Positions 18,112 to 54,193 of a DNA stretch of 64,000 nt are shown piece after piece (position 1 is the first letter of the stretch; the number at the start of each line of letters is the position of its first letter). This DNA comes from an uncultured Armatimonadota bacterium (GTDB lineage: Bacteria > Armatimonadota > Fimbriimonadia > Fimbriimonadales > Fimbriimonadaceae). The notes beneath the pieces are model-generated. The model was not told the origin of the DNA. It saw nothing but the letters and a program-made list of their open reading frames with translations, and did no database searches. Where the stretch lies: NCBI GenBank assembly GCA_903927345.1, contig CAIYMO010000019.1:1-64000 (forward strand), given 5' to 3'. A program made the position numbers and the translations under genes.

Positions 18112-18464
18112 GGGGGCGTCAGGGTTCGACAGGACCGAAGCGACTCATCGTTGCGAGCCGTGGATTCTCGTTGGCCACGTAAAAAACGAGTAAAAAATAA
18201 CTGCAAACAATAACTTTGCATTCGCAGCCTAAGTGCCGCGCATGAGCCAGTTCTGAGCCAGTAAGAACTGATCCTCGTGTAGCCAAATCTGGATCGCTAG
18301 GGCGAGCTTCTGTTCGTAGTAGACCCGGCTAAACACAATCGGACTAAGGGTGCGCTAGGCGGTCTCGGCAGAGGCGCATCACAAAAATCCAAACTGAGAA
18401 GACGCTCGTGGTAATGCTGGGAAGGCGGTTTTGGAAGGGAGTTCAATTCTCCCCGCCTCCACCA
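18112..18464 (+). ncRNA. ssrA: transfer-messenger RNA (tmRNA)
   Basis: The RNA rescues stalled ribosomes. The 5' end GGGGGCG pairs with the 3' CGCCTCC, followed by A and CCA at 18462-18464. The tRNA-like T-arm is GGGAGTTCAATTCTCCC. The tag frame runs from the resume codon GCA at 18203 to TAA at 18230-18232 and encodes ANNNFAFAA, ending in the usual Ala-Ala degradation signal. Length (353 nt) is normal. The 3' end is the attachment site of the island that follows. Confidence 0.95.
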
Positions 18465-18467
18465 GTT
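18436..18467 (+). repeat. attL: 32-bp tmRNA 3'-end direct repeat
   Basis: Thirty-two bases from the tmRNA T-arm through CCA and GTT recur exactly at 54162-54193. This is the usual outcome of site-specific integration at the 3' end of a tRNA-like gene. The copy here keeps the tmRNA gene intact. Confidence 0.92.
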
Positions 18468-18560: not shown

Positions 18561-19982
18561 GTGGGTCGAAAGCGTAAAGAAGGCGATTTAAACGGCTATA
18601 TTGAGCGCAAACGCCGCGTGGATGGGACCGAATACGTTGTGTTTGTGCAGCCTTTTAGAGTTGTAGTCACAGATGCTAGTGGTGGTCAAAGAGAGATTAG
18701 GCGTAAGGTGCAAAGCGACGCATTTAACCGATCCAATACGTTTGCACTTGTTCAGGCCGCTTCACAGGCTGGCTCACGTATGGAGGCAGCGAGGTCCAAG
18801 TTGTTGGACCTGGAGCCCGAATCGAAGCCGAGTATCCCCGCTGGGCCCTCTAAGCCTACAGTCAGCGAGGTGGCGTTAATGCAGCTAAATTCGATTACGC
18901 GCTATGGCGTAGACGGCAGGACGCCGCAGGCGGCCAGACCCGCGACCAGGCTAGTCTACGAGAAGTCTATTCGGCGAATGGCAAAGTTTGAACCTCGAAT
19001 TGCAGACCTTCCTCTCGCGTCGCTCACCAGGGCCCAGGCCGATGCGCACCTCTCAGAATTCAGGAAAACTGTTGCCGCTCAGACTGCAGACCACTATCAG
19101 GGTCTCTTGCACACGATTGGAAACTGGGCAGTGGACCAAGAATTGATCTCCACAAATCCATTTCGTAAAGTCGGGCGGCATGGTCGAGGATCAAAGACTC
19201 TGGACAGGGTTGCTTTAGAGCTAGATGAGATCAACAGATTAAACATCGCAACTCAATCTTCTCCAACAATGAGGGCGGCGCTAAGACTTCTTAGGAGTGG
19301 ACTGAGAGCAAGCGAAGTGATTGCCCTTTCCGAAGATGATATTGATGCGAGGTTAAACACAATTCGGATCAAGTACAGCCAGGTCCAAGCAGTGCCAGGC
19401 TGGGCAAAGTTCACGACGAGTCCATTTTTCCTCGACGAGCCCAAAACTCCAACATCAACAACCACATTAACGCTACACGGTGAAGTAATTGCAGAGCTTC
19501 TCGAGGCGCTGAAGTATGCGAAAGTGTGTGAGGTCGAGTGCTATGACAAACCTGGCTTGCTGCAAAAGAAGAAGTTCGTTGTTCACAACAGACACTTCAA
19601 AGGACTTCTATACAACAATTTCCAGAGGCAGATAAAACATCTGTTCGAGGTAGCTAAGGTTGACTTGCCTGCAATGTATGCGGGTGCGGTTCGGTGGAAT
19701 CACGTATGGCGCAATACTCTGGCTGCAGACTTGTTGGCGCTTGGGGCCGACGACCTTATAATTCGAAATCTTATGCGGCATAGAGATGCGAATACTTCAA
19801 AGACTGTGTATGCATCTGCTCGCAATAATCATCTGCATGTCTATAGAAGCTATGCATCGAAGGTAAAAAAAGCTTCCGATTACTTGCAGGTAATCGCAAA
19901 GATCGATCTCGATATGGAGGCAGGGGAGAGTCGGTTTCTGCTGAAACAGGTTTCGATTTACGACTTGGATGACCAGACTTGA
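18561..19982 (+). CDS. int: tyrosine recombinase / integrase
   Basis: A 473-aa integrase beginning GTG, 97 bp inside the left attachment site. The basic N-terminal part is followed by a core-binding domain around residues 120-200 (LTRAQADAHLSEFRKTVAAQTADHYQ) and the catalytic domain. There are an Arg in RSGLRASEV, HVWR (HxxR), a second His in NLMRHRDANTSKTVY, and the nucleophile Tyr in that last motif. It would catalyse integration into and excision from the tmRNA 3' end. Nothing suggests truncation. A 157-bp gap separates it from the defence operon. Confidence 0.93.
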   Translation: MGRKRKEGDLNGYIERKRRVDGTEYVVFVQPFRVVVTDASGGQREIRRKVQSDAFNRSNTFALVQAASQAGSRMEAARSKLLDLEPESKPSIPAGPSKPTVSEVALMQLNSITRYGVDGRTPQAARPATRLVYEKSIRRMAKFEPRIADLPLASLTRAQADAHLSEFRKTVAAQTADHYQGLLHTIGNWAVDQELISTNPFRKVGRHGRGSKTLDRVALELDEINRLNIATQSSPTMRAALRLLRSGLRASEVIALSEDDIDARLNTIRIKYSQVQAVPGWAKFTTSPFFLDEPKTPTSTTTLTLHGEVIAELLEALKYAKVCEVECYDKPGLLQKKKFVVHNRHFKGLLYNNFQRQIKHLFEVAKVDLPAMYAGAVRWNHVWRNTLAADLLALGADDLIIRNLMRHRDANTSKTVYASARNNHLHVYRSYASKVKKASDYLQVIAKIDLDMEAGESRFLLKQVSIYDLDDQT

Positions 19983-20139: not shown

Positions 20140-23100
20140 ATGGCAAAGCTTGAAGAGCTGACTAAAGGTGCACTTGCAAAGGGGATTCTAGGAGGCGACG
20201 TCGTCACAGTCGTTGACACCAAGTGGCACGGCAGTGACGTTGTTGAGGTGTTCTTCACGGACCAAAAGGGCAAAGCCGATAGTGCGCTTGCTTACCGAGA
20301 CCAAGAGTTTGAAATCGAGATTCTTGAGCCTAGCTCTAGGTGGTCATTTACTGGAGACGGAGAAATGTTTCGGCTTGCTATGGAAGCAATGCGGATTCAA
20401 ATGGCTCACCATTTCGATCCATACCTTGCAGTTAACACTTCGCTGGTCATTCCGCTTCCGCATCAGATCACCGCAGTTTATGAGGAGATGCTAACACGGC
20501 AACCACTAAGATATCTGCTTGCTGACGACCCAGGTGCGGGTAAGACGGTCATGACTGGCTTGCTGATCAAAGAACTGATTGCCAGAGGTGATCTAAATCG
20601 ATGTATGATCGTCGCCCCAGGTTCGCTCGTTGAGCAATGGCAGGACGAACTCTGGCGCAAGTTTGGTTTGCGATTTGAAATCCTCACCAATGACCAGTAC
20701 GAGAATGCTCCGACGGGCAATTGGTTTAGTGAAAAGAACCTTATCATCTGCCGCCTCGATAAGCTGAGTCGAAATGAAGCGATCCAAGAAAAACTCAAGG
20801 CGTGCGACTGGGACTTGATCGTTTGCGATGAAGCTCACAAGATGAGCGCTACTTATTTTGGTGGCGAGGTGAAATACACCAAACGTTATCGTCTTGCACA
20901 GACGCTTTCCAGCATAACCCGTCACTTTTTGCTGCTCACAGCGACTCCTCATAACGGGAAAGATGCGGACTTTCAACTGTTCATGGCTTTGCTAGACGGA
21001 GATCGATTCGAGTTCGTGGCTCGTGATGGTGTGCATCAAGCTGATCCTAGTGATCTCATGCGAAGGATGGTCAAAGAACAACTGCTGAAGTTTGACCAAA
21101 CACCTTTGTTCCCAGAACGACTTGCTTACACCGTGGCCTATAGCCTCTCACCTGGAGAAGCACAACTATATTCAGAAGTAACGGACTACGTCCGAGATCA
21201 GTTTAATCTCGCAGAAAAGCTGACGAATCAAGGGAGAAACAATGTCGGCTTTGCTTTGACTTCACTGCAAAGGCGTTTGGCATCTTCTCCCGAAGCGATT
21301 TGCCAGTCGCTCAAGAGGCGCAAGGAGCGACTTGAGAAGAAGCTTCGAGAAGAAGAACTCATCAGGAGGGGACATCAGCAGAGTATTGATCTAAGCAACT
21401 TGGTCGGAGTTCACTTTGACGACGAGGACCCTGAAGGTTACGATGACCTACCTGAAGAGGAGCGGGAGCAGACCGAGGCCAGGGTTATTGATGAGGCCTC
21501 GGCTTCACAGACAATTGAGCAACTCAAAGCTGAAATTGAGATTCTCAAGCGGTTGGAGAACCTGGCCAAGGAAGTACGGAACAGCGGCACCGACCGAAAA
21601 TGGGACGAGTTATCCAACATTCTGCAGGACAGGCGCGAGATGTTTGATGAGGCAGGTGCGAGGCGAAAGCTCGTTATCTTCAGTGAGCATCGAGACACGC
21701 TGAACTACCTCGAGCAGAAGATTGGAAGTGCGCTGGGTCGACCTGAATGCGTTGTGGTGATTCACGGCGCAATGGGGCGGGAAGAGCGCAGAAATGCTCA
21801 GCAAAGATTTACACAAGATAAGGACGCGCTTATTCTTATTGCCACCGATGCTGCTGGGGAGGGCATTAACCTACAAAGGGCGCATTTGATGGTCAACTAT
21901 GATCTGCCGTGGAATCCCAATCGGCTTGAGCAACGATTCGGTCGAATCCACAGAATTGGCCAGACGGAAGTCTGTCACCTGTGGAATCTCGTCGCTGCAG
22001 AGACAAGAGAAGGAGACGTCTACAAAAAACTTCTCGACAAAATCGAAGAGGAGCGCATTGCTCTCGGAGGACAAGTCTTCGATGTGCTTGGGCAGCTCAT
22101 GTTTGGCGATCAACCACTGTGGCAACTGCTTAGGGATGCTGTCCGATATGGCGATGATCCTGAGACAAAGAAGCGATTATTTGAGAAAGTGGAAGGGGCC
22201 CTGGATACTGAGATTCTCAAGGATTTGCTGAATTCGCGGGCACTTGTGGATGAAGCGATGGATGCAAGCACAGTGAGGCGTGTCAGAGAAGATATGGAGC
22301 GAGCGGATGCTCGCAGACTACAACCTCACTTTATTGAGTCGTTCTTCCTCAGGGCATTTGTTCTTTTAGGTGGAAGCATTAAAGAACGTGAGGGACGCCG
22401 TTACGAGATTACTCATGTTCCCGTTGGAGTTCGTCGACGAGATCGCGAGATCGGAACTGGCGATGCTGTCCAACCTAAGTATGAGAGGGTGACTTTTGAA
22501 CGCGATCTTGTAACAGTCCAAGGGAGACCGTTAGCCGCATTTTTATGCCCTGGGCACCCTCTGCTTGACGCAGTCATAAGCCTGATCATTGAGCGGCATC
22601 GCGACGTCTTGAAGCAGGGCGCAATCCTGATTGACGAGATGGACGATTCTGACACCCCGAGAGCGTTGGTTGCCCTCGAACATGAGATTACTGACGGGCG
22701 AAGAGATGGCGGAGGAAACAGGCGAATTGTCTCAAAGAAGTTTGGCTTTGTCGAACTGACGAGCGAGGGAGACTCACGACAGGCAGGCACTGCCCCTTAT
22801 CTTGACTATAGACCCGCTTCAGATGTGGAACTTGGCTGCTTGTCAGGACTTGCCAGTAGCCCCTGGTTGGGACAGGGATTAGAGGAATCTGCAATATCGT
22901 ATGCCGCACGCGAACTTGTGCCCAACCATTTTGCTGATGTTAAGTCGCACAGAGAAGTCTGGGTAGATAAAGCAATCGCTGCCGTCCATGAACGACTCAC
23001 ATCTGCAATCAACTACTGGGATAATCGGGCTGAAGAGCTTCGCCTTAAGGAGCAGGCTGGGAAGCAGCCTAAGCTCAACTCTGACAAAGCAAGACAGCGT

Positions 23101-23634
23101 CGAGACGACCTACGTGAGCGACTCGAGAAGAGGACCGCGGACCTAAGACTTGAACGCCAGCTTCAGCGCGGAGTACCGCGAGTTGTAGCAGGCTCGCTGA
23201 TTGTTCCAATCGGTTTGCTTAATCAGCTCCAGGACGGTGTCAAGGTTCCAGATCACCACGCAAAGGAGACCAAGCGCATCGAGCTTTTGGCAATGCAGGC
23301 CGTGATGCAAACTGAGATTCAAAACGGCCATACGCCAATAGATGTGAGCGCCGACAAGCGGGGCTACGATATCGAGTCAATACGCTCCGATGGTTCCATC
23401 AGATTCATTGAGGTGAAGGGAAGGATTCACGGTTCTGATACAGTTACCGTTACAAAGAATGAAGTCTTGACTGCACTGAACAAACCAGATGACTACTACT
23501 TGGCAGTTGTAATCATCAATGGCGATACGGTTGGCGAGCCACTCTACGTTCAACGTCCGTTCAGGAAGGAACCCGAATTCTTTATGACGACGATCACTTG
23601 CAAGATACGAGATTTGGTTTCAGCCGCCCAGTAA
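20140..23634 (+). CDS. SNF2-type helicase with C-terminal DUF3883 domain (Hma-like helicase)
   Basis: A 1164-aa protein. Residues ~110-300 form the first helicase lobe, with Walker A DDPGAGKT (~131-138), DEAH in VCDEAHKMSA (~231) and LLTATPHNG. The second lobe (~500-620) has motif V/VI: ATDAAGEGINLQ and QRFGRIHRIGQ. Coiled-coil stretches occur around 390-490 and 965-1010. The C-terminal ~100 residues (GYDIESIRSDGSIRFIEVKGR) form a DUF3883 domain, a PD-(D/E)XK-like fold. The layout matches the helicase of helicase-methylase-ATPase loci and resembles DrmD of DISARM. It opens an operon running to 37471; the ATG follows a GAGG ribosome-binding site. Confidence 0.9.
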   Translation: MAKLEELTKGALAKGILGGDVVTVVDTKWHGSDVVEVFFTDQKGKADSALAYRDQEFEIEILEPSSRWSFTGDGEMFRLAMEAMRIQMAHHFDPYLAVNTSLVIPLPHQITAVYEEMLTRQPLRYLLADDPGAGKTVMTGLLIKELIARGDLNRCMIVAPGSLVEQWQDELWRKFGLRFEILTNDQYENAPTGNWFSEKNLIICRLDKLSRNEAIQEKLKACDWDLIVCDEAHKMSATYFGGEVKYTKRYRLAQTLSSITRHFLLLTATPHNGKDADFQLFMALLDGDRFEFVARDGVHQADPSDLMRRMVKEQLLKFDQTPLFPERLAYTVAYSLSPGEAQLYSEVTDYVRDQFNLAEKLTNQGRNNVGFALTSLQRRLASSPEAICQSLKRRKERLEKKLREEELIRRGHQQSIDLSNLVGVHFDDEDPEGYDDLPEEEREQTEARVIDEASASQTIEQLKAEIEILKRLENLAKEVRNSGTDRKWDELSNILQDRREMFDEAGARRKLVIFSEHRDTLNYLEQKIGSALGRPECVVVIHGAMGREERRNAQQRFTQDKDALILIATDAAGEGINLQRAHLMVNYDLPWNPNRLEQRFGRIHRIGQTEVCHLWNLVAAETREGDVYKKLLDKIEEERIALGGQVFDVLGQLMFGDQPLWQLLRDAVRYGDDPETKKRLFEKVEGALDTEILKDLLNSRALVDEAMDASTVRRVREDMERADARRLQPHFIESFFLRAFVLLGGSIKEREGRRYEITHVPVGVRRRDREIGTGDAVQPKYERVTFERDLVTVQGRPLAAFLCPGHPLLDAVISLIIERHRDVLKQGAILIDEMDDSDTPRALVALEHEITDGRRDGGGNRRIVSKKFGFVELTSEGDSRQAGTAPYLDYRPASDVELGCLSGLASSPWLGQGLEESAISYAARELVPNHFADVKSHREVWVDKAIAAVHERLTSAINYWDNRAEELRLKEQAGKQPKLNSDKARQRRDDLRERLEKRTADLRLERQLQRGVPRVVAGSLIVPIGLLNQLQDGVKVPDHHAKETKRIELLAMQAVMQTEIQNGHTPIDVSADKRGYDIESIRSDGSIRFIEVKGRIHGSDTVTVTKNEVLTALNKPDDYYLAVVIINGDTVGEPLYVQRPFRKEPEFFMTTITCKIRDLVSAAQ

Positions 23635-23643
23635 TCGACAACG

Positions 23644-26600
23644 ATGCTTCCAACGTACTTTTCGAGAGTTCAAGCCGAAACTGCCAAGCGATGGGACCAA
23701 CTGGACTCTGATCCAGAGTTGGCCGCACCGTGGAAGCAGCTATTTAGACAAGTCCAGAGTCCTCGTCATGTGTTGTCTGAGCTACTGCAGAACGCGGAAG
23801 ATTCTGGCGCCTCCTGGGCACGCGCATTTGTTTCTGATGGAAAGTTCATATTTGAATACAATGGCAAGGACTTTGACGAGGATAGTTTTAGGTCGCTCTG
23901 TCGATTCGGCTACTCGAACAAGCGAAGTCTCCACACAATTGGATTTCGGGGCATAGGATTTAAGACAACGTTCAGCTTAGGGCAGGAAGTTGAAGTTGAT
24001 ACCCCATCCTTTTCGTTTGCGTTTAACGCGAAGCGCTTCACACTCCCGATATCGAGGGCGGGCATCAGGGATCAGAATTTCACCAGAATATCGGTTTTTC
24101 TTGAGTCAATCGAGAAGGAGAAAGCGATCATTGATAGTTTCAATGAGTGGCTTTCTAGCCCACTTCCGCTCATCTTTTTCGACAATCTCAAGAGTCTCCA
24201 GATCACCGATCAATTGATCGAGAAGCTTATCGACAAAGATGGACCTGTAGAGAACTCAGAGTGGGTTTATCTAAGCACGAAGCCCGATGAACTTCTACTT
24301 CGCATTTGGTCGACCGCCGAAAGCTTTCCTGACGAATGTGTCTCAGAAATACGTCAAGAGCGAGGTGACGAAGTATTCGACCCAGCCCCTTGCAAGGTGG
24401 AGTTGGTGCTGGGTGCCAGTAGTGGAAGACTTTATACAGTTCTGCCGACCAACGTGCAGCCAAACCTACCGTTCGTTTCGAATGGGCCGTTCATCCAGGA
24501 CCCTTCGAGATATCGGATCAAGGCGCCCGAATCTTCTCCAACAAACGACTGGCTCCTCAGGCGAGTGGGTGCATTAGCGAGAGATTCTGCGTTGCAGTGG
24601 CTCCAAAATGAGTCGCTTTCAATGGCTGAACGCGCAAAGGCCTACGAACTGTATCCAGACGTTTCCGAGATAGCTGGGACATCCTCGGATGCCGCCGTGG
24701 CAAGGGTGATAGTGGATGCATTCGAATGCGAGCGGTCTGTTCCTGTCTTGCTTTGTGAATCAGGAACTCTGGTGGCAGCAAACGGGGCAGTTGATGTGCC
24801 AGCCAGGCTAGTTTCGATATGGGGCTATGAAACAGCGACCAGGATTTTTAGCGCTTCAACTGAAGAATGTCTATGTTCCCAAATTACTGCCACGCAGCGG
24901 GACCGACTCGCAGGTTGGCATCTTATCGGTCGCAACGCTGAAGACAGTGTATCCAGAGTCTTAAGCCAACGAATCGATCTTCCCCACCCACTTGATGATG
25001 ACAAACTGATCGATCTTTGGGAATACGTCTATCAGATTGATCAGAATCGATGGGATCGTTATTCTCGTCGGTACTACCCGATTACCCCGATAAGCGGCGC
25101 CTCGAAGCTGATCCAGTCAAAAGCGGCTGCGTTCATTCTCGAGCGAGACTCGTCTCTCAGCGACGACGACCGAGACCTTTTACTGAAGTTTCTAGACGTT
25201 GCTGATCTTCCGTTTTTCCAAAGGCTGGACAAACTGGTTGAGGATAACCCAGAGGACGCCCGACTTCAATCTGCAAAGCAGATGCGGCCAAACGAAAGGC
25301 CAACATCTATGCAAGAGGCTTTCGAGCAAGCGAGCCGAAAGGTGTTTTCTGATCCGATCGATCTTGAGAACAGACTGGAGCTCACCCGATTCGCCGCTCG
25401 GCATCGACTCAGTCTTGACCGAGAAAGATTGACCACTTTCCGATTGCTCTCAAAAAATGGCGGGTGGATAGATGTTACGCAAGCCGTGCATCCACGAAAG
25501 CGGGACGAGAGTGACCTACTTCCCTCGTCTTGGCTAAACCACTTTGCGATTTCTGACGAATACACGGTCCGACTGGCCGAAGAAGAGGCAGAACAGTTTT
25601 GGGAGTGGCTAATCTCCAATCAGGGGGGAATACGCAGATTCCCAGCTCCACGTCAAGGAAAACAGCGGCTCTACTCCCAGGACCAGATCAACGAGGCGAT
25701 TCGCGAGCGAGGGCTGACTGTCGGTTGGGAAAAGCGATCTTCTGCTTATGAGCTTGAGGATTACGATTGGCCCGAAGAGCTGGTATCGCACTGGGAAAAC
25801 CTTGCTCAATCAGACGATGAAGTGTGGTCCCGAGTCGTTGAAGCGTTGGGTCTCGCGTTTCGATCTGACATTTCTAAGTACGCCGAGGCTCGTGCAGGAC
25901 GGGTACATGGCGCTGTAGCTCGAGATTTTCAGGCTGGCATTCCTGCAAAGTGGCTCCATCGGTTGCGAGGCTTGAAGTGTCTTATCGAGGAGCGATCCCA
26001 GATGCCGATGGAACCATCGCTTCTGCTGCGAAGGACTCCTCAAACCGAACCATTACTGCAGATCGAGAAGTTTGTCTTCCGCAACCTCGATATTCCAGAG
26101 ATGTCTCCACTTCTAGACGCACTTGGTGTTCGAAGAGAGCCGAAAGACGCGACCACGATCTTAACTCGGCTAGAGGCACTTTCAAATTCGTCCTCTCCTC
26201 CAATTACAAACCTGTTGGACCTTTACCGCGCCCTGGATGCCATAGCCTCGGCTTCAGACGACCGAAACAAGGCAGCACTGCAGGACGCATTCCAGACAAA
26301 GGCACTCGCTTTTGGAACTGATGGGAGATGGTTCCGAGCTAATGAGATTTGCCAAGGAAACGATGGTGACCTCGAAGGGTTACCAACGATACATCCCGAG
26401 CTTCGTGGACTTCGGCTTTGGGATGCAGTCCAAGTTCCAAAATTTGCGAGCTTCGAATCACAAGAAGCTTGGATCAAATCAATCAAGCCGTTCACTAGGC
26501 TGAGCGATCAGGAGCGCAAAAGGGTTCAGGTCGTTCTTGGGCATTTCCCGCGCGAAATCTATCAGCAACTGACTTGTTGGCTCAGTTGCCACGGCGAATG

Positions 26601-27771
26601 GCTGCCTCTCGACCACCTGACGTACCACTCGGTTACTCCAAGTTCGGTGAGTGGTTTGTTCAATCAAATCAAGTCAGCAACGGCAGATTTTTCGTTCGTG
26701 TCCACCAGTCTGGCGTTAGAGCTTGCTTCCTATAGGCCAAGCATCGAAGATGTAATCGAGCTAGAAGTTAGGCCGACCGATTCGATCCAGTCCGATTCGC
26801 CGATCTGGCTTGGTGCAATCGCCGAATGCATTCTCAGAATTCAAGAGAAGAGCATTGGAGAGCTGGCTCAGGATCAAGAGTCGGCTCGTCTCATGTTGAG
26901 GTCCTCTTGGGTGCCCGCATCCAAGATAAACGTAATCCCCCAGATCGATGGAGTGCAAGCTGGTCCCGAGGCGGTAAAGAAATCCCTTTGGACCGATGAA
27001 GGCGTGATCTATGTATCTGGCAGCAGTGCAGCACACCATAAAGACCTTGCTGAAACATTCGTGTCAAGGTTCCTCTCCAGAGAGATCAAAGAGGCCATCC
27101 GCGATTCCATCGGACGCGAACAGGTTTGGATCGAAGAGCGATTCGGTGCACAATTCCTTCTTGGAGCTGCCGTTCCAAGCGTGGCCGAGGTCACTATCAA
27201 AGTGATGACGGACCAGAGCGACGCCCCCCAGCCTGAGCCAGTTCGGATGGAATTGATCGGGGCCAGCACATCAGAGGGTATCACTCCTGAAGTGAAGCCA
27301 CCTGCCGAAGAAGTGGCAAACGAACCCGTAGGGCTTGATGCAGCAAACAAAGGGACCGAAAAGAAGGAACCTGCAGCAAAGCTTAGGCCCCTCCACTCAT
27401 TCTTAACCGAGAAAGGCTTTGAATGGAGTCATACCCAGAGCGTGTACTCAAATCCTCAAACAGGCGAGGTGGTCAAGCGAGAGCCTGGGGCAATCCTTCC
27501 GTGGACTAAGTTCTCACTGTCGGGCGCGGTACTCAAGCGCTTCCTCGAGACTTCGACAACTCTGAATCAGGGAATTGATATCAAAGCAGAGGCATGGATG
27601 CTCCTAGAGACTCGACCCGAGCTGTGCTGCATTGTCGGGCCAGGAGAGAACAATGATGTCTTCGTGCTCGAGGGAGATTCGTTAAAGCACCTTAGGTCGA
27701 ACGGCTGGATTTCTGTTGCTGCTACGGGATATCGACTCCGTGTTGAGGCAGACGGCCAGTCGAGTAACTAG
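23644..27771 (+). CDS. giant sacsin-type GHKL ATPase protein
   Basis: A 1375-aa protein starting nine bases after the helicase stop. The N-terminal ~200 residues carry a GHKL (Hsp90/sacsin-like) ATPase: ELLQNAEDSGA (N-box, ~46) and GFRGIGFKTTFSLG (G-box, ~100), like sacsin repeats. The rest lacks a recognised fold. It is mostly helical with scattered beta segments, a low-complexity Pro/Glu-rich linker around 1190-1245, and a compact C-terminal domain of ~120 residues with WSHTQSVYSNPQTGEV. Sacsin-like ATPases occur in bacterial defence islands but the mechanism is poorly known. It is not one of the three core Hma genes and is probably an embedded accessory. Confidence 0.85.
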   Translation: MLPTYFSRVQAETAKRWDQLDSDPELAAPWKQLFRQVQSPRHVLSELLQNAEDSGASWARAFVSDGKFIFEYNGKDFDEDSFRSLCRFGYSNKRSLHTIGFRGIGFKTTFSLGQEVEVDTPSFSFAFNAKRFTLPISRAGIRDQNFTRISVFLESIEKEKAIIDSFNEWLSSPLPLIFFDNLKSLQITDQLIEKLIDKDGPVENSEWVYLSTKPDELLLRIWSTAESFPDECVSEIRQERGDEVFDPAPCKVELVLGASSGRLYTVLPTNVQPNLPFVSNGPFIQDPSRYRIKAPESSPTNDWLLRRVGALARDSALQWLQNESLSMAERAKAYELYPDVSEIAGTSSDAAVARVIVDAFECERSVPVLLCESGTLVAANGAVDVPARLVSIWGYETATRIFSASTEECLCSQITATQRDRLAGWHLIGRNAEDSVSRVLSQRIDLPHPLDDDKLIDLWEYVYQIDQNRWDRYSRRYYPITPISGASKLIQSKAAAFILERDSSLSDDDRDLLLKFLDVADLPFFQRLDKLVEDNPEDARLQSAKQMRPNERPTSMQEAFEQASRKVFSDPIDLENRLELTRFAARHRLSLDRERLTTFRLLSKNGGWIDVTQAVHPRKRDESDLLPSSWLNHFAISDEYTVRLAEEEAEQFWEWLISNQGGIRRFPAPRQGKQRLYSQDQINEAIRERGLTVGWEKRSSAYELEDYDWPEELVSHWENLAQSDDEVWSRVVEALGLAFRSDISKYAEARAGRVHGAVARDFQAGIPAKWLHRLRGLKCLIEERSQMPMEPSLLLRRTPQTEPLLQIEKFVFRNLDIPEMSPLLDALGVRREPKDATTILTRLEALSNSSSPPITNLLDLYRALDAIASASDDRNKAALQDAFQTKALAFGTDGRWFRANEICQGNDGDLEGLPTIHPELRGLRLWDAVQVPKFASFESQEAWIKSIKPFTRLSDQERKRVQVVLGHFPREIYQQLTCWLSCHGEWLPLDHLTYHSVTPSSVSGLFNQIKSATADFSFVSTSLALELASYRPSIEDVIELEVRPTDSIQSDSPIWLGAIAECILRIQEKSIGELAQDQESARLMLRSSWVPASKINVIPQIDGVQAGPEAVKKSLWTDEGVIYVSGSSAAHHKDLAETFVSRFLSREIKEAIRDSIGREQVWIEERFGAQFLLGAAVPSVAEVTIKVMTDQSDAPQPEPVRMELIGASTSEGITPEVKPPAEEVANEPVGLDAANKGTEKKEPAAKLRPLHSFLTEKGFEWSHTQSVYSNPQTGEVVKREPGAILPWTKFSLSGAVLKRFLETSTTLNQGIDIKAEAWMLLETRPELCCIVGPGENNDVFVLEGDSLKHLRSNGWISVAATGYRLRVEADGQSSN

Positions 27772-27811: not shown

Positions 27812-28189
27812 ATGAATTCCAACGACTTCCCACTCTTTATTGATCCACCTGAGGCCCTATCCCAAGTAGTCGCTACCGAGCAACTTCGCTTGTGCCTCCG
27901 CAATGCAGCCAAGTTTGGTAAGCCGACGAAGGAGCAGGAAGTGTTTGTGTATGCGACTGAGGATCGTTTCTGTATCGAAATCGGCACGTTTCGGCACTGG
28001 TTCGAACTTGAAGGAAACTGGTCAGGATGTGTCAGTCTCAATGCTCGACTGATGCTCCAATGTCGCGGAGCGATTTCACGAAAGCAGCGTACACAAATCA
28101 AGTACGATAGGGGGTGGCTCTACCTCGACACTCTCGGCATTGGTCGAGCTGTATGGCAGCCCAAATACGACCCTGATTGGATGATTTAA
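27812..28189 (+). CDS. small protein of unknown function in the defence operon
   Basis: A 125-aa protein, 40 bp after the giant ATPase gene and 12 bp before the next. It is dominated by alternating hydrophobic beta strands (EVFVYATEDRFCIEI, GCVSLNARLML, GWLYLDTLGI). The strand pattern vaguely recalls one domain of a DNA sliding clamp, but I see no diagnostic motif, so this is only an impression. No signal peptide. Position implies co-expression with its neighbours. Confidence 0.7.
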   Translation: MNSNDFPLFIDPPEALSQVVATEQLRLCLRNAAKFGKPTKEQEVFVYATEDRFCIEIGTFRHWFELEGNWSGCVSLNARLMLQCRGAISRKQRTQIKYDRGWLYLDTLGIGRAVWQPKYDPDWMI

Positions 28190-28201
28190 CGGAGATCATG
28201 C

Positions 28202-28675
28202 ATGTTAAACACCTCAATAAACCGCATCTTCAAACTGAGCCTGATAGGCTTGATTGCGTTCTCCCTCATGGGGTTTGCTGCTCATCAGCTTACTGTTCCG
28301 TCCATCGAAGATCGGGCAGATGCGCTGTTTCGTGATTTCGACGAACTTCAACGCCTTGGTGCATATGTGGTCGGCGAAGACGGAGAAAAGCTGGGAGACA
28401 TCTCCAAGGGACTAGGGAGTGATTCGTTGGGTAACCCTTACGGAGCGGGAAACGAGTACAAGTCAAACGGTCTGTTTAACAGCTTCGGCAAGTACGGAGG
28501 GCAGTTCAACGCAACATCTGCATTCAATAGTCTTGCAACAAAGCCACCAAGCATTTTGATTCGTCGCAATGGAGATGTCTACTCCGTCGGCTTGCTCACG
28601 ACCAATAAGTTGGCTCCCACGAGGGGACAAAGAATAAACCCCTACTTGTTGAAGGCTTGGTTGCAGAGCAAATGA
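28202..28675 (+). CDS. small secreted or membrane-anchored protein in the defence operon
   Basis: A 157-aa protein starting MLNTSINRIFKLSLIGLIAFSLMG, a signal peptide or single membrane anchor. The central part is Gly/Asn/Ser-rich (DSLGNPYGAGNEYKSNGLFN) and contains KYGGQFNATSAFNSLATKPP. The GxYGxxFxxxSAxNxxAxxPP pattern recurs in small bacterial proteins of unknown role. An exported product inside a DNA-acting defence operon is unusual. Its stop overlaps the start of the decayed methylase copy (ATGA), as it would have with an intact methylase gene. Confidence 0.7.
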   Translation: MLNTSINRIFKLSLIGLIAFSLMGFAAHQLTVPSIEDRADALFRDFDELQRLGAYVVGEDGEKLGDISKGLGSDSLGNPYGAGNEYKSNGLFNSFGKYGGQFNATSAFNSLATKPPSILIRRNGDVYSVGLLTTNKLAPTRGQRINPYLLKAWLQSK

Positions 28676-28827
28676 ACTACCGTAAGAAACTCACCGAAGT
28701 CGTCTTCCCGTTGGAAGAGATCAATGCCGCGTCAGCGCGTGAGAAGTCCATTCGGCATAAGTCATCTCAGCATGCTGCACCAGTGGTGTGCCATGCGACC
28801 GCTGTCGCACAGGTGATTTTATGCTGA
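28672..28827 (+). pseudogene. decayed 5' end of a DUF1156 methylase gene
   Basis: The frame starts MNYRKKLTEVVFPLEEIN, nearly the same as the intact methylase at 29987 (four differences in the first 29 residues). After IRH one inserted base shifts the frame. In the shifted frame the family signature continues as HLSMLHQWCAMRPL, against HPSTLHLWWARRPL in the intact gene, then stops. Homology covers about 49 codons and ends where the ribosome-binding site of the next gene (AGGTGA, 28811-28816) begins. It keeps the ATGA overlap with the preceding gene, so the methylase once started here. Not a functional gene. Confidence 0.88.
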
Positions 28828-29990
28828 GTATTATGTTCAATCGGGTTGGACCCAACCATGTTTCGCTCTACGAGGTCCCGAAAAGTGCTTTCGTTACGAA
28901 ACCTGGCAAAAAGAGAAGGCACTACAAGTTTCGTCCGCTGACAGCGGCGAATCCCACCAGACTCGAATTTAAGGCCATCCAACTTGCCCACGCAATCGTT
29001 AAAGCGGACTGCTATCAACGGGACCGATTCGAGTGGTTTATGGCATGGTGCTTCCTGATTCAGCACCATCGGGTATTTGATTGGAACTCGACTGAACTGC
29101 GACTAAATCCTGGAGTCCGCAACCTCTACTTTGACTTCGTTCAGACAACATTGATCGGGCGTGTTGGAAACGGACTCACATTGCTTCTGGCCAACGAACT
29201 GGGCTATCCATTTCATGCGCATTTCGTGACATATCTTGCAAAGAACCCACCTGCTGGTGGAGTTGTACCGCCTAACAAAGCTCCTGACTTTATCTGCGGC
29301 ACTACCACTTCGCGGGCCATTTTTGAATCCAAGGGGAGTTTTCCTGGTACGGGCACGCTTGCTGATGTTAGCGCCGCCTTAAACGACGGGCTGACCCAAA
29401 TCGGCAACTGGCCAACGATCTTAGGAATTTCCAAGTCATACGCTTGTGCCTCCTATGTTCGTGAATCTGGCGATACAGACCCTGAAGGTTCGTTGACGAT
29501 CTTCGTCGACCCCGAAAGTGACAACGATCAACCAACAATTGAGTTCCCACCAGTTCGGTTGCTTCGCGAGAACTACGCAGCATGGTTTGTCGCAATGGGG
29601 CTTCCCGACGTTGCAGCAAGGCTTCGCTCTGGGGACTCAGGTAGTGGAGTGTCTCACCGCTTCGTGATCTATCGATACGACCCTAACATCGGGGAGAGAA
29701 AGTCCATTGCGTTCCCCAGCGATCATGTTGCTGATCATGAAGTCCGCGAGGCATTAGGGCGGATGTTTGAGATGCCTCGATTCGGAATTGAACTAGAAGT
29801 GCTGCTCGGCATCCCAGACCTTGCGCAAGGTCGAATACACGAGGTCTTTGGTGAGACGTTGCTTCCCGAGAGCGCGTCTCAGTCCGACACCTCAGGCGGC
29901 AGCTACAGTCTGTTTCCTGACGGCACATTCCTTGGCGCGATTCCTCGCTTATCCGTGGCTAATCCCGACTTCATCGAGATAATACTATGA
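28821..29990 (+). CDS. PD-(D/E)XK-like protein embedded in the Hma-like operon
   Basis: A 389-aa protein from the ATG at 28821, which follows AGGTGA; the GTG at 28788 would lie within the decayed methylase copy. Residues 154-172 carry KAPDFICG...AIFESKGS, fitting the Asp...Glu-x-Lys core of PD-(D/E)XK nucleases, preceded by a helix (GNGLTLLLANELGYPF). No other domain is recognised. The ATG of the intact methylase overlaps its stop (ATGA). Either an effector nuclease or a recognition module is plausible. The scar just upstream suggests it entered the operon later than the core genes. Confidence 0.75.
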   Translation: MLSIMFNRVGPNHVSLYEVPKSAFVTKPGKKRRHYKFRPLTAANPTRLEFKAIQLAHAIVKADCYQRDRFEWFMAWCFLIQHHRVFDWNSTELRLNPGVRNLYFDFVQTTLIGRVGNGLTLLLANELGYPFHAHFVTYLAKNPPAGGVVPPNKAPDFICGTTTSRAIFESKGSFPGTGTLADVSAALNDGLTQIGNWPTILGISKSYACASYVRESGDTDPEGSLTIFVDPESDNDQPTIEFPPVRLLRENYAAWFVAMGLPDVAARLRSGDSGSGVSHRFVIYRYDPNIGERKSIAFPSDHVADHEVREALGRMFEMPRFGIELEVLLGIPDLAQGRIHEVFGETLLPESASQSDTSGGSYSLFPDGTFLGAIPRLSVANPDFIEIIL

Positions 29991-32900
29991 ACTACCGTAA
30001 GAAACTGATCGAGGTCGCGCTTCCGCTGGAGGAGATTAATGTTGCTTCCGCGCGGGAGAAGTCGATTCGGCATGGCCATCCCAGCACGTTGCACCTTTGG
30101 TGGGCGCGGCGACCGCTGGCGACTTGCAGGGCAGTTCTGTTCAGCTCAATCATTGACGACCCAGGTGAAGAGGGCGTTCCTCAGGAACTGTTGGATCAGA
30201 TCGATCAACTGCCACTTGACCGAAAGTATCGGAACCTAGCCAGCGACGAGTTGGATGTCACGAGCGGAGAAGCGCTAAGCGACGAAGAAGCTGAGCGAAT
30301 CAAGGTCGCTCGAGAGCGTCGGTACAGACTATTTACGTTCATCGAGCGGTTGGTCCAGTGGGAAAACTCTAACGATGAGGACACTCTCACCATCGCTCGA
30401 GACTTGATCAATGCAGCGACAGGTGGAAACCCGCCGCCCGTCCTCGATCCATTCTGCGGTGGTGGTTCCATCCCACTCGAAGCTCAACGCTTGGGGTTAG
30501 AGGCCCACGGCAGCGATCTCAACCCAGTCGCTGTGCTCATCACCAAAGCGATGATCGAGATTCCACCTAAGTTTGCAGGTCAACCGCCTGTCAATCCACT
30601 AGCTCAAGCAAACCTGGGGCTTTCGAAGCCACTTCCACCCGAAACAGAAGACTTTGAAATCATTAATGAGTTCGGCCATACCTTTGATGTCAAGGCCGCC
30701 TTCAACGGAAAAGACGCCGTCGAACTCCATGAAATGGCAAAGGCAATGGAGGAGTCCTGGAACGAAGTTGGAGTCTGGCAAGGCACATTAGATGAACTGC
30801 GAGGGGCGATGATCTTCTTCCTCCGCCAGCAGCGTCACTGGGGAGAGAACCCGACACCTGGTACCGATCGCTACGTACTGTTCACAACATTGCACCAGGC
30901 TATCCGTGAGGCTTGGAGTCGAACATCTTCCACACAGGCCGCTCCATCTTTGCCAATGAACGTCACTTTTAGGGGAGCTCAAGGGCTCGCCGAGGATGTC
31001 CGCTACTACGGGCAGTGGATACGCGATGAAGCCGAAAGTCGAATCGGGCATCTCTATCCCAAGGTAGTGATCACTGCTGAAATGGCCGAGAATCGTCCTG
31101 AACTCAAAGAGTTGGTCGGAGATGAGCTAACCGTGATCGCGTGGCTATGGGCAAGGACCGTACCGAGTCCTGACCCAGCAGCTCAGGGTGCGCATGTTCC
31201 TCTGGTGCGTTCCTTCGATCTGAGTAGCAAGAAAGGCAAAGAGGCTTGGATCGAACCAATTGTCGATCCAGTGAGCATGTCTTACAAGTTTGAAGTGCGC
31301 ACACCAAAATCGCATCCAGAATCGAAAGCTTCAGAAGGAACGATTGGCAGACAGGGGGGCAAATGTTTGCTGACGGGAAGTCCGATGTCCTTTGAGCATA
31401 TTCGCACTCTTGCGAAGGGTGGACAAATGAACCATCGATTGATGGCGATTGTGGCTGAAGGAGTCAGGGGTCGAATTTACCTCCCACCTTCGAAGGTACA
31501 AGAAGAAATCGTACGTGAGTTGCCAGAGATCGAACCTCCGACGAGTCACTTGCCTGAAAAAGCGCTCGGCTTTCGAGTTCAAGCCTATGGAATGTCTCGG
31601 CATTCTGATCTATTCACGAGTCGGCAGTTGGTGGCATTGACAACGTTTGGTGACTTAGTTAGCGCGGTGAGAGAGCGGGTACTAGACGACGCCATATCTG
31701 CAGGCAAAGACCATGCTAATGCTGCAGCCTACGCGAACGCGATCAGCACTTATCTAGCGTTTGCCGCCGACAAAGGTGCGGACTATTGGTCTTCGCTTTG
31801 CAGCTGGCACTCTTCACGAGAGCTGATAAGAAACACTTTTGGTAGACAAGCGATCCCAATGGTTTGGGACTTCGCAGAGTGCAATCCGATGAGTGAGTCA
31901 ACAGGCAACTGGATGGCCTGCATTGATTGGGTATGGAAAGCGCTGAAACATGCACCCGCTGCACGACAAGGCATCTCAGAGCAGGCGGACGCAACGAAAC
32001 AGACGAAAATGCCTTACCTGTTCAGCACCGACCCGCCTTACTTTGACAACATCGGTTATGCAGATTTGAGTGATTACTTCTATGTGTGGTTGCGACGTTC
32101 GTTGGGTGTTGTCTATCCAGATTTGTTTACTACCGTGGTAACCCCAAAATCCGATGAGTTGATCGCAACCCCATATCGTCATGAAGGGAGCAAAGAGAAA
32201 GCGACACAATTCTTCGAGAATGGTCTGAGGCAAGTTTTTGCAAGGATGCGGGACCAAGGATTGCCCGAGTTTCCGACCACAATTTACTACGCGTTCAAAC
32301 AGAGTGAGACCGAAGAAAGTGAAGACAATGTAGCTTTCGAAACTGCCTCGACGGGTTGGGAAACGATGCTCCAGGGATTGGTGGACTCTGGATTCGCGAT
32401 CAACGGAACATGGCCAACTCGGACGGAGCTTGCTAATCGCATGGTTGCCTCGGGAACCAACGCGCTAGCCTCCTGCATTGTTCTCGTGTGCAGACAAAGA
32501 CCAGTCAATGCTGAGCCGATCAATCGACGTCAGTTTATGAGCCTTCTCCGTCAGGAACTGAAGCCCGCACTGATCAAGCTCACCCAGGGCAACGTCGCAC
32601 CAGTCGACCTCGCCCAGGCGGCAATCGGTCCAGGTATGGCCGTTTTCAGCCGCTACAAGTCAGTTCTTGAGGCCGATGGCACTCCCATGCGGGTCCGCAC
32701 GGCGCTGACGCTCATCAACCAAGGTCTTGACGAAGCGCTTGCGGAGCAGGAAGGCTGGTACGACGCCCAAACTCGTTGGGCAGTGACCTGGTTCCAGCAA
32801 AGAGGATTTGATGAGGGTCCCTATGGAGATGCCGAAATCCTGGCGACCGCCAAAGACGCTCCTGTGACAACAATGGTCGAAGCAGGAATCGTAAAGTCGG

Positions 32901-33304
32901 GCGGAGGCAAAGTAAAGCTCCTCAGCCGCGAAGAACTCCCCGTTGATTACGATCCTGAAACTGACCCGCGCACCACGGTATGGGAAGCAACTCAGTACCT
33001 GGTTCGAGAACTGGAGGTCAACGGCGAGCTTGGTGCAGCAAGAATGATGCGTCGCTTCCGAGAAACGAAGCCCGAAGTCGAGATTGACCGTGGCCGAGAG
33101 CTGGCATACCGCCTCTACGCGATCTGCGACGGCAAGCGCTGGACCAACGAAGCCCGCGGCTACAACGCCCTAGTTTTGAGCTGGAGCGACATCGAGGCTG
33201 TCTCCCAAACCGACGACGCCCTGTGGGGCGCCTCAGTTTCGGCTGGACCAGGAACGGGTCCGAAGAGAAACGAAACTCCAAGCTTCGAGGGCATGACTGA
33301 CTGA
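29987..33304 (+). CDS. DUF1156 DNA methyltransferase (Hma-like methylase)
   Basis: A 1105-aa protein. The N-terminus MNYRKKLIEVALPLEEIN and HPSTLHLWWARRPLA (~29-43) are DUF1156 signatures. The methyltransferase has the SAM motif DPFCGGGSIPLEA near residue 153 and catalytic DPPYFDN near 682, an amino-methylase (N6-adenine or N4-cytosine) type. A Cys-containing insert with CLLTGSPMSFEHIR lies between them. The C-terminal part (TVWEATQYLVRELEVNGELGAARMMRR) is also typical. Probably modifies host DNA to mark self. Start overlaps the PD-(D/E)XK gene stop (ATGA). Length is normal for the family. Confidence 0.92.
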   Translation: MNYRKKLIEVALPLEEINVASAREKSIRHGHPSTLHLWWARRPLATCRAVLFSSIIDDPGEEGVPQELLDQIDQLPLDRKYRNLASDELDVTSGEALSDEEAERIKVARERRYRLFTFIERLVQWENSNDEDTLTIARDLINAATGGNPPPVLDPFCGGGSIPLEAQRLGLEAHGSDLNPVAVLITKAMIEIPPKFAGQPPVNPLAQANLGLSKPLPPETEDFEIINEFGHTFDVKAAFNGKDAVELHEMAKAMEESWNEVGVWQGTLDELRGAMIFFLRQQRHWGENPTPGTDRYVLFTTLHQAIREAWSRTSSTQAAPSLPMNVTFRGAQGLAEDVRYYGQWIRDEAESRIGHLYPKVVITAEMAENRPELKELVGDELTVIAWLWARTVPSPDPAAQGAHVPLVRSFDLSSKKGKEAWIEPIVDPVSMSYKFEVRTPKSHPESKASEGTIGRQGGKCLLTGSPMSFEHIRTLAKGGQMNHRLMAIVAEGVRGRIYLPPSKVQEEIVRELPEIEPPTSHLPEKALGFRVQAYGMSRHSDLFTSRQLVALTTFGDLVSAVRERVLDDAISAGKDHANAAAYANAISTYLAFAADKGADYWSSLCSWHSSRELIRNTFGRQAIPMVWDFAECNPMSESTGNWMACIDWVWKALKHAPAARQGISEQADATKQTKMPYLFSTDPPYFDNIGYADLSDYFYVWLRRSLGVVYPDLFTTVVTPKSDELIATPYRHEGSKEKATQFFENGLRQVFARMRDQGLPEFPTTIYYAFKQSETEESEDNVAFETASTGWETMLQGLVDSGFAINGTWPTRTELANRMVASGTNALASCIVLVCRQRPVNAEPINRRQFMSLLRQELKPALIKLTQGNVAPVDLAQAAIGPGMAVFSRYKSVLEADGTPMRVRTALTLINQGLDEALAEQEGWYDAQTRWAVTWFQQRGFDEGPYGDAEILATAKDAPVTTMVEAGIVKSGGGKVKLLSREELPVDYDPETDPRTTVWEATQYLVRELEVNGELGAARMMRRFRETKPEVEIDRGRELAYRLYAICDGKRWTNEARGYNALVLSWSDIEAVSQTDDALWGASVSAGPGTGPKRNETPSFEGMTD

Positions 33305-33306
33305 AA

Positions 33307-34152
33307 ATGAATGAAACGATCAAACTAGAAGAAGTGGCTCTCCCCGCGGAGGCTCAAGTGCAAGCGACACCAGAGATGAGCCTCTCAGGTCAGGCTTTTT
33401 TTCGTAGGCAAACAGAATGGTTGCAAGAAACTCGATTGATGGCTGAAGCAATCTACAGGCTGCGATTGCAACGAAAGACCGAAACGTTCCTTAGGTTTCT
33501 CCCAAGGGCGTGGCCCAAAAAGAATCTCGATCCGAACGTCTCAAATTTCATAATGAGTCAGCAGCAGATCGACTTGCAGCTCAAGGGACTTCTCCCGCGG
33601 ATGTTGGAATCTCGGTTTATTTTTCTCGAAACTCTTTGGGAAGCTTATCTTTCTGATCTAGTGGTCGAACTGAGTCACGAAAGTGGCTCATTCTTCGAGG
33701 AGGCCCTCAAAGATACTTCCATTCCCAGTGAACTGGTGAGGCGGGCATTGACTGATAAATATTCGACCATCGAAGAGCTTCAGAGGGACATTGGAGTGGT
33801 GTTCGCAGAGAGAACGACAAGATCATCGTTCCGAGAGCAGTGGAAAAGACTCGCTCAATTGGTAAAAGCACTCGGCAAAACGGACCCCTCCGACCAGTGG
33901 TTTCACGATCTTGAAGTCTATTTCTGCATGAGAAACTGCGTCATACATCGACAATGTTTAGTCTCTGTACAACTAGCCGAGGCAAGTGAGGCCTTCAAGG
34001 ACAAGGGTGGTCAAAGATTCCAAATCAGTCCAAGCGACTTGGACTACTTCCGACACTCGTTCATTGCCTGCATAACCCACATCGAGACAAAGCTGCAGGC
34101 GTTTTTTGCAGCCAAAGCACAGGAACAACAGAATCAAAATGGCACTCAGTAA
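33307..34152 (+). CDS. HEPN-domain-like protein embedded between methylase and ATPase
   Basis: A 281-aa, largely helical protein. Near residues 206-215 is MRNCVIHRQ, matching the R-x4-H motif (with Asn after Arg) of HEPN nucleases, placed in a long helix as in that superfamily. The N-terminal region (~40-110) is Arg/Lys-rich. It starts two bases after the methylase stop and its 3' end overlaps the ATPase start by 14 bp. HEPN proteins often cut RNA, including in toxin and defence roles, so an RNase effector is plausible. Non-catalytic HEPN domains also exist. Confidence 0.7.
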   Translation: MNETIKLEEVALPAEAQVQATPEMSLSGQAFFRRQTEWLQETRLMAEAIYRLRLQRKTETFLRFLPRAWPKKNLDPNVSNFIMSQQQIDLQLKGLLPRMLESRFIFLETLWEAYLSDLVVELSHESGSFFEEALKDTSIPSELVRRALTDKYSTIEELQRDIGVVFAERTTRSSFREQWKRLAQLVKALGKTDPSDQWFHDLEVYFCMRNCVIHRQCLVSVQLAEASEAFKDKGGQRFQISPSDLDYFRHSFIACITHIETKLQAFFAAKAQEQQNQNGTQ

Positions 34153-37100
34153 CAAGGAACGGATCGGACGGCTGTTGGACTCACTGAAGAGTGAGTTGCG
34201 CACGTACGTCGAACAAGAGCTGCGAGATGTCTATGCCGACGACTGGGGCAAGCATGTTACTCCAGGGGAAGGTGAGCTGGATATACAGCGCCTTTGTAAT
34301 ACCATCTTGGCGAAGTGGGATGATGTGTTCGAACCGCTTCTCGATGCACGAAGCAAAGAGTTTAAAAACCTCGTCCATGAGGTTCGCAAGTGGCGCAACA
34401 AGGTCGCTCATCAGGAGCCTTTCAATGCTGACGAGACCATCAACGCTCTGATTGATCTCCAGAAATTCTGCGAGTACATTCAGTCTCCATTGGCTGAAGA
34501 GGCCGAGAGATCAAAACTGGAGGTCATGCGTGCGCAGTTTGAGAGCGGTGCGAAGAAGGAACAACGAAAGGTTTCACAGTCCACTCTAGGATTTGACATC
34601 CCTGGCCTTCGACCTTGGAGAGAAGTCGTCGTACCTCATAGCGATGTTGCAGATGGTAAGTTCCAGCAGGCCGAGTTCGCGGCTGACCTGTGGCAGGTGC
34701 ACCAGGGTGGTGGAACCGACGAGTACCGCGATCCCCATGCCTTCTTTGGTCGGACCTACCTGACCGAGGGTTTGCGAGAGCTTCTGATTAATGCCATGCG
34801 TCGCCTTCGAGGTGAGGGTGGTGACCCTGTCGTTGAACTGAAGATCAACTTTGGTGGTGGTAAGACCCACTCGATGTTGGCTCTCTATCACCTGTTCAGT
34901 GGCCAGACTAAAGCCTCGGAACTGGCGGGAGTGGAGGATGTTCTGTCAGCAGTTGGAGCAACTGATTCGCCGAGAGTTCGTCGTGCGGTCATTGTCGGAA
35001 CCGCGGTTCGGCCTGGTAGTCCGATCGTTCATACCGACGGGATCGAGACGCGGACACTGTGGGGCGAAATCGCATGGCAACTCGCTGGCCGAGAGGGCTA
35101 CGAAATCGTCCGCGATGTGGACGAAAACTCAACGAACCCTGGTGACCTTCTCGACAAACTGTTCGCTCTGGCGGGTCCTTCGTTGATCCTGATTGATGAG
35201 TGGGTCGCCTATGCTAGGCAACTTGTCAACCGCCAAAACATGCTTCCTGCAGGAGACTTCGATACTCAGTTCACGTTTGCCCAGGCGCTGTGTGAGGCAG
35301 CCAAACGAGCGAAAAATGTTCTCGTCTGCGTGAGTATCCCTGCGTCCGAGCGAGACGGCATTGTGGTCTCGACGGCTCAGGCAGGAGACACTAATGGCAA
35401 GATCGCGCTCGAGCGTCTCCAGGATGCAGTCGGTCGATCCAACATGGTTTGGCGGCCTGCAACAAGCGACGAATCCTTTGAGATTGTGCGAAGGCGACTC
35501 TTCCAACCCGTTGCAGGCGATATGATCGCGTCTCGAGATGCCACGATTCGGGAGTTCGTCGAATTTTACAGAAACAATCCAAACGACTTTCCTTCCGAGT
35601 CGCGTGAGAGTTCCTACGAGAAGCGAATGCAGGCCGCATATCCTATTCACCCTGAGCTGTTTGATCGCTTGTACTCGGATTGGTCCACACTCGAGAAGTT
35701 TCAGCGCACTCGAGGTGTCCTGAGGCTGATGGCTAGCGTAGTCCACTCGCTATGGGTTAACAATGATGGCGGCGCTCTCGTGTTGCCAGCCTCTATTCCG
35801 CTCTCTGACCCGACTGTGCAATCTGAGGTAACTCGATATCTGCCCGAATCATGGTCGGCGGTAATTGAGAAGGATGTGGACGGCCCAAGTTCTGCACCGA
35901 TGCAGCTTGACTCCACGTTTACTTCCACTTACGGACGTTTCTCAGCAGCTCGACGAGTAGCACGTACCGTTTTTCTGGGTAGCGCACCGCTCAAAGATGC
36001 GGCGACTCGGGGAATTGATGAGCTGCGGATCAAACTGGGAAGTATCCAGCCTAAGGAGACTGTCGCGACCTTTGGAGATGCGCTCGGAAAGCTGAGACAG
36101 AAGACGACCTACCTCTATGCTGATCAGAGTCGATACTGGTATCACACTCAGGCTTCCGTCTCTCGGGAGGCTCAAGACCGCGCAGATCATCTCAAACCTG
36201 AAGACGTACATCGCGAGATTGTTAATCGGCTCAGAGAGATGTTCCGTGGCTCACGGAGAGGAGAGTTTGGAGCTATCCACGTGGATGTGGCCTCCTCTGA
36301 TATTCCTGATGATCGAGAGTTGCGTCTTGTTGTGATTGGACCTGGCCATTTGCATCAGCATGGAAAATCTGAATCTTCCGCTCTTGCGAAAGCGAAGGAA
36401 ATCTACGAGTATCGTGGCTCGGCGCCAAGAGCTAACCGCAACAGAGTTGTCTTTTTGGCACTCGACGCGGGGAGATTTAGCGAGCTGGATTCCTCCGTGC
36501 GGCAGTATCTGGCTTGGACCTCGATCATTGATGATGTGATCGAGAAGCGCATTGACCTGGATAACTCAAACAAGGCAACCGCGGAGGCGAGCAGAACTCG
36601 CACGAACAGCGATGTTGGAGTGAAGCTCGGGGAAGTCACTGCTTACGCACTTGTCCCGTATCAACACGAACCACGGGGAATTCTCCAGTGGGAATCGATT
36701 AAAGTCGCAGGCGATATCACCCAACTCACCGTAAGACTTATCAAGAAACTCGAAGCAGAGCAGCATATCACCCGCACCCTAGGAGCGAACGTTCTTCGAA
36801 CGGATGTTGACCGAGTCCCGCTGTGGCGAGATGATAAGCATGTCAGTGTGGCGCAGCTTCAGGACGACTTTGCAAAGTACGTGTACCTGCCAAGACTTCT
36901 CAATGAATCCGCCCTCGTTGACGCAATCGTTAAAGGGGCAAATCCTCTTGATTTGGATAGCGGCTTTGCTTACGCAGACAACTACGACCCTGAGACCCAG
37001 TCTTATGAGCGCCTACGGTTTGCCATGTTTGATGGCGGTCGCGTCCCAACGGGGTGGTTGGTTAAACCAGGCGTGGCTCAACCGATCATCGACGCGCTTC

Positions 37101-54161: not shown

Positions 54162-54193
54162 AGGGAGTTCAATTCTCCCCGCCTCCACCAGTT
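54162..54193 (+). repeat. attR: 32-bp tmRNA 3'-end direct repeat
   Basis: An exact 32-bp copy of the tmRNA 3' end (18436-18467), with no tRNA-like body to its left, so it is the displaced original end after island insertion. A six-base-pair hairpin (TTCGCC / GGCGAA, 54209-54224) just beyond may be part of the former tmRNA terminator. Confidence 0.92.

Follow-up and report, generated by a model that had tools for sequence, protein, structure and literature searches.

A 64,000-nucleotide stretch of DNA from an uncultured Armatimonadota bacterium (contig CAIYMO010000019.1, positions 1 to 64,000; the window) encodes a sacsin-like GHKL ATPase of 1375 residues at 23644-27771, which we call SAC. The window copy is referred to as P0001, and all window features given below lie on the plus strand. 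SAC is a recurrent, dedicated yet optional fourth component of Hma, which was described as three genes found across 26 phyla (PMC8565338) and was renamed 'Type-1 DUF499-centred BREX-related system' (Type-1 BR) in PMC12839542. We propose that SAC is an ATP-driven clamp that would gate the NOV_C nuclease of HmaA within Hma, and the probability of this reading is estimated as about 0.5.

SAC and the Hma operon

The SAC open reading frame (ORF) is uninterrupted, begins with ATG, and is part of an operon that matches all three PADLOC models for Hma at about 1e-299 or better. HmaA (20140-23634; 1164 aa) is an SNF2/SF2 helicase with a C-terminal NOV_C nuclease domain and scores 1637 bits. HmaB (29987-33304; 1105 aa) is a DUF1156 N6-adenine DNA methyltransferase (1160 bits; DUF1156, 1.1e-24). 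HmaC (34106-37471; 1121 aa) is a Swt1-like HEPN domain fused to a DUF499 ATPase (995 bits, 1.3e-299; HEPN_Swt1, 1.6e-17). These matches identify the operon as an Hma (Type-1 BREX-related) system, and membership predicts an anti-phage role. The first-pass annotation of the window had proposed a methylase-based defence operon; the DUF1156 and N6-type methyltransferase of HmaB bear this out, and the operon now has a name.

The spread of SAC was determined by scanning 84,980 species, each represented by one genome, with an alignment of four sequences as the query. The scan recovered about 60 relatives, mostly full length and about 27-32% identical to P0001, in Alphaproteobacteria, Chloroflexi, Armatimonadota, Latescibacterota, Actinobacteria, Euryarchaeota, and other lineages. 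A single-sequence scan of genome contigs found no SAC relatives, whereas the alignment scan did. We did not detect SAC in phages by tblastn, and the viral contigs yielded one relative (L124), which also has HmaABC.

Linkage was counted at the 42 loci whose flanks reach 4.5 kb or more upstream and 7.5 kb or more downstream, and these flanks were searched by homology. HmaA is present at 39 of the 42, HmaB at 39, HmaC at 38, and all three at 36. The contig ends before HmaA could be seen at L095, and two loci, L069 and L099, truly lack it. A separate search of 301 genomes gave strong SAC matches in five (G000, G204, G027, G071, and G283), every one within an Hma locus. Gene order differs among loci (A-SAC-B-C, A-B-C-SAC, or SAC-A) and the association with Hma persists. 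The closest partner is HmaA, and SAC commonly lies directly 3' of it. In the window the SAC start codon is 9 nt downstream of the HmaA stop. The helicase pairing noted in the first-pass annotation is real, and over the family loci it is near-exclusive. The HmaA-SAC pair also occurs without HmaB and HmaC, once followed by metH (L084) and once beside an Eco57I-type methyltransferase (L064). These counts, together with the SAC-less sister systems described below, show that SAC is dedicated to Hma but optional.

SAC and HmaA distances are correlated (r = 0.69; the highest value in 999 permutations is 0.34), below the 0.98 obtained for HmaA and HmaC. The correlations fit a long co-inheritance of SAC with gains and losses, and they do not single out HmaA.

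Predicted architecture of SAC

SAC is firmly assigned as a sacsin/Hsp90-type GHKL ATPase. It matches NCBIfam NF047352 (P_loop_sacsin) with 63 bits (2.6e-17; cut-off 50) and the PADLOC TmtA model at 6e-49, and the Pfam SACS match is below threshold (25.2 against a cut-off of 32.8; 1.7e-5). An explanation of the PADLOC label TmtA was looked for and not found. The N-box E46-LLQN50-A-D/E-D53 and the glycine motif G100FRG103xG105FK show little or no variation across 47 family members, and all 47 share E46, N50, G100, G103, G105, and R289, which agrees with the N-box and G-box first read from P0001. In our reading the Hsp90/sacsin-type head binds ATP and probably hydrolyses it. Membership of the MORC/paraMORC group was dropped, as the PDB profile match to MORC3 reached just E 0.005. 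The DUF4263 nuclease of the Shedu (VcSduA) type was not found in P0001 or in the scanned operon proteins. SAC does not clearly match any well-characterised family outside defence: its similarity to sacsin stops at the ATPase module, and full-length members of the SAC family sit in Hma operons.

An AlphaFold model covers residues 1-1190 with a mean predicted local distance difference test score (pLDDT) of 86. Residues 22-195 (23707-24228) form an ATP-binding domain like that of Hsp90 and sacsin SR1. The sacsin SR1 crystal structure (5v44_C) aligns to the model with a Z score of 13.5 and 2.9 Å over 160 residues, and Foldseek matches the model to Hsp90/TRAP1 (E 3e-8, probability 1.0). Residues 196-429 (24229-24930) form an Hsp90-middle-like domain in which R289 lies in a loop, with a strand before it and a long helix after it. 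The catalytic loop arginine occupies the same strand-loop-helix position in sacsin (R474) and Hsp90 (R380) (PMC9880540). In the model R289 appears to be the counterpart of this arginine, an assignment made by position and topology and not by superposition of coordinates. The matches in the structure search cover residues 18-429 only and bear little on residues 430-1060 or on a possible Hsp90 C-terminal dimerisation domain. The middle domain is followed by about 600 residues of mixed helix/strand modules (residues 430-1175; 24931-27168) with a weak sign of internal repetition around hairpins. Internal comparison gave one in-register pair, 305-420 against 824-939 (probability 58%, E 1e-4), and the rest was noise or overlapping segments; a repeat architecture within the body is suggestive only. 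The first-pass annotation had recognised no further domain along more than 1000 residues. This holds for sequence profiles but not for structure, which extends the Hsp90/TRAP1-like ATPase and middle domain to about residue 429.

The C-terminal domain (residues 1237-1370; 27352-27753) was predicted confidently, with pLDDT above 90 over most of its length. Restriction-endonuclease-like or tRNA-intron endonuclease folds account for 47 of the 50 structural matches listed. The best match is the D212 nuclease (Z 8.7, 5.5 Å over 115 residues), and the best Foldseek probability is 0.96, yet with E 0.17. A single Z score of about 8.7 is near background, so the assignment of a restriction-endonuclease-like fold rests on the agreement among matches. 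The catalytic D..ExK set is not conserved; the acid position of (D/E)xK is W, Y, or L, and P0001 also lacks E1288 and K1303. Judged by these residues, the domain is probably not a nuclease and is catalytically dead. A diverged NOV_C looked plausible by eye and was rejected (hhalign 0.33%, below column-shuffled controls), as was kinship with the C-terminal ends of the short sacsin-like proteins that pair with helicases (hhalign 0.17%). The suggestion that this roughly 120-residue domain may be new stands in part: none of the sequence profiles names it, but its nuclease-like fold is not obviously new.

Coupling to the HmaA nuclease

NOV_C (DUF3883) is a restriction endonuclease domain fused to an SNF2 helicase in such operons (PMC3710099). 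The window HmaA carries this PD-(D/E)XK domain at 23278-23529 (PF13020, 2.2e-22) with the motif GYDIES..RFIEVKG intact. Every HmaA examined carries NOV_C, and GYDI..IEVKG is intact in 54 of the 56 collected. The full-length SAC relative L069, which is outside Hma and beside HerA and UvrD, has NOV_C at its own C-terminus (Pfam, 3.3e-11). Among distant sacsin-like proteins the NOV_C motif occurs in 9 of 14 without an adjacent helicase and in 0 of 17 beside a DrmD/HmaA-like helicase, counts that are uncorrected for shared ancestry. Thirteen of the 17 helicase-adjacent proteins end in a CxxC..CxxC domain. The distribution suggests that a sacsin ATPase is coupled either to a nuclease on its own chain, in cis, or to one borne by a helicase, in trans. 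The first-pass annotation took the helicase pairing as the sign of a nucleic-acid or protein sensor. The pairing stands, and the proposed role is refined to a clamp or regulator of HmaA, which is more specific, given the NOV_C nuclease on that helicase.

If SAC behaves as other GHKL proteins do, ATP would drive its head to close like a clamp, either on DNA itself or on DNA-bound HmaA. The long body and the dead nuclease-like C-terminal domain would contact HmaA and dock next to its NOV_C domain. Cleavage of unmethylated invader DNA would be licensed only in the ATP-closed state, and SAC would contribute to phage protection in this way. The best experimental precedent, by analogy, is VcSduA, a Shedu protein that joins a GHKL ATPase to a PD-(D/E)XK nuclease, in which phage defence needs both ATPase and nuclease residues (PMC12137116).

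Several observations weigh against SAC as a clamp that gates HmaA. Hma can dispense with SAC: by our own count, just 4 of the 21 genomes in which HmaC matches strongly have it. SAC-less HmaA proteins are interleaved in the HmaA tree; L166 is sister to the window and L156 is sister to L026. The correlation of SAC with HmaA is no better than that with HmaC, and its partial r is 0.11 given HmaB and HmaC. Two systems retain SAC next to an altered nuclease motif. The Bradyrhizobium HmaA of L022 (7025-10597) has GYG for GYD, with loss of the NOV_C Asp that may leave the nuclease dead, and the NOV_C motif of L084 is degenerate. The contrast between NOV_C in cis and in trans may also partly reflect shared ancestry, for which the counts are uncorrected.

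The main rival is that SAC is an independent defence gene carried as cargo in Hma, one that brings its own sensor and effector and takes no physical part in the system. The patchy presence of SAC, with several gains and losses, fits this explanation, as does the gap between HmaA and HmaB, which differs in gene content among loci (L022, for example, has ASCH- and B3-like ORFs there). Independent action is also reported for GmrSD-like genes that lie within Hma clusters, as far as the work of Payne et al. is relayed in PMC11411939. However, independent cargo should also occur outside Hma, yet HmaA is found at nearly every SAC locus. SAC lacks an intact nuclease of its own, whereas its stand-alone relatives have one, and a pair of HmaA and SAC occurs where HmaB and HmaC are absent. 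We regard independent cargo as unlikely, though a serious competitor.

In a second explanation SAC serves the very large subunits of Hma as a chaperone or assembly factor and makes no contact with DNA. Its nearest folds are Hsp90/TRAP1 and sacsin, and PMC3710099 describes sacsin itself as a chaperone. Against this, SAC is absent from most Hma systems, which by that token do without it, and a nucleic-acid complex is what the linked NOV_C and the dead nuclease fold indicate instead. We hold a chaperone role to be quite improbable. Slightly less probable still is a SAC that senses a phage protein or a feature of phage DNA and triggers the HmaC HEPN RNase in abortive infection, not the HmaA nuclease. 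The window HmaC has the Swt1-like HEPN, and HEPN-DUF499 was proposed as a suicide effector (PMC12839542), but the partner retained in L084 and L064 is HmaA and not HmaC. A toxin-antitoxin role was dropped for want of any evidence.

Genomic setting and relation to known systems

Four further ORFs lie in the window operon. Two between SAC and HmaB belong to no family by profile searches (27812-28189, 125 aa; 28202-28675, 157 aa). A third, of 400 aa (28788-29990), overlaps the start of HmaB and contains a PD..ESK motif read by eye; it has no profile or PDB match, and homologues occupy the same slot before HmaB at L044, L079, and the SAC-less L163. From this motif it is possibly an extra PD-(D/E)XK nuclease. 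The fourth, of 281 aa (33307-34152), lies between HmaB and HmaC, has an HEPN-like RNxxxH motif read by eye, and matches no profile. At L022, three small genes at 10594-11962 between HmaA and SAC encode an ASCH-like protein, a weakly B3-like protein, and an unassigned protein, possible readers of modified bases.

The Hma operon is carried on a 35.7-kb integrase island in the transfer-messenger RNA (tmRNA) gene. The tmRNA gene (18112-18464) is followed by a tyrosine integrase (18561-19982). A 32-bp perfect direct repeat of the tmRNA 3' end bounds the island, with an attL-like copy at 18436-18467 and the other at 54162-54193, and the core of the repeat is found nowhere else in the genome. The same island carries an ArdC-like antirestriction gene (46330-47166) and three tandem dynamin-like GTPases (47801-53685; LeoA/LeoBC-like in PADLOC), a possible second defence system. 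Two other arrangements were recorded among the relatives. At L069 (8049-16968) a HerA, sacsin-NOV_C, and UvrD cluster adjoins Type III restriction-modification genes and looks like a separate candidate defence system. Loci L105-L123 show a widespread gene pair of a DrmD-like SNF2 helicase followed by a sacsin-like protein of about 1050 aa whose terminal CxxC..CxxC domain is HNH-like.

The HmaA helicase with its NOV_C domain, the DUF1156 methyltransferase, and the HEPN-DUF499 protein of Type-1 BR are all present here, but the canonical system has three genes, whereas this operon adds a sacsin-like ATPase and small ORFs between HmaA and HmaB. SAC shares the SR1-type ATP-binding domain, the Hsp90-middle-like domain, the loop arginine, and a long helix/strand body with sacsin (SIRPT/SR domains) and TmtA-type bacterial proteins. 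It differs in having only one ATPase module, in lacking HEPN, J, and UBL domains, and in its probably dead restriction-endonuclease-like end. VcSduA, of the paraMORC3 type, likewise couples a GHKL ATPase to a PD-(D/E)XK nuclease in defence, but it does so in one protein with an active DUF4263, whereas here the GHKL family is sacsin-like and the candidate active nuclease is on another subunit. Plant NO VEIN combines a sacsin-like ATPase with NOV_C. The prokaryotic sacsin-NOV_C fusions (L069, L103, L042, and L039) have the same combination, which at Hma is split over two adjacent genes, although profile comparison does not identify the C-terminal domain of SAC as NOV_C. Hma-embedded candidates (HEC) are also extra genes within an Hma operon, but HEC-05/06 are GmrSD-like stand-alone systems and SAC is tied to Hma. 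No literature that links sacsin or GHKL proteins to Hma or DUF499, or that describes a four-part Hma, was found in the searchable texts, a scope that leaves out the Payne et al. preprint on embedded genes. Hma and the bacterial sacsin-like proteins in PADLOC were already known; the conserved four-part form appears to be new on the texts searched.

A broader possibility, which we hold only tentatively, is that a sacsin-like ATPase with NOV_C is an ancient prokaryotic defence engine with two wirings, either one protein or a helicase-NOV_C plus SAC. The dead domain would pair with the active NOV_C, the clamp would time the cutting of foreign DNA, and immune DNA clamps would be the ancestors of sacsin and NO VEIN in eukaryotes. 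The biochemistry of these two large eukaryotic proteins is unclear. With its one ATPase module, defined partners, and expected phage phenotype, a compact sacsin-like protein from bacteria would open the ATP cycle and the function of the long body to testing. The conserved four-part form further suggests that current three-gene annotations omit a subunit at many Hma loci.

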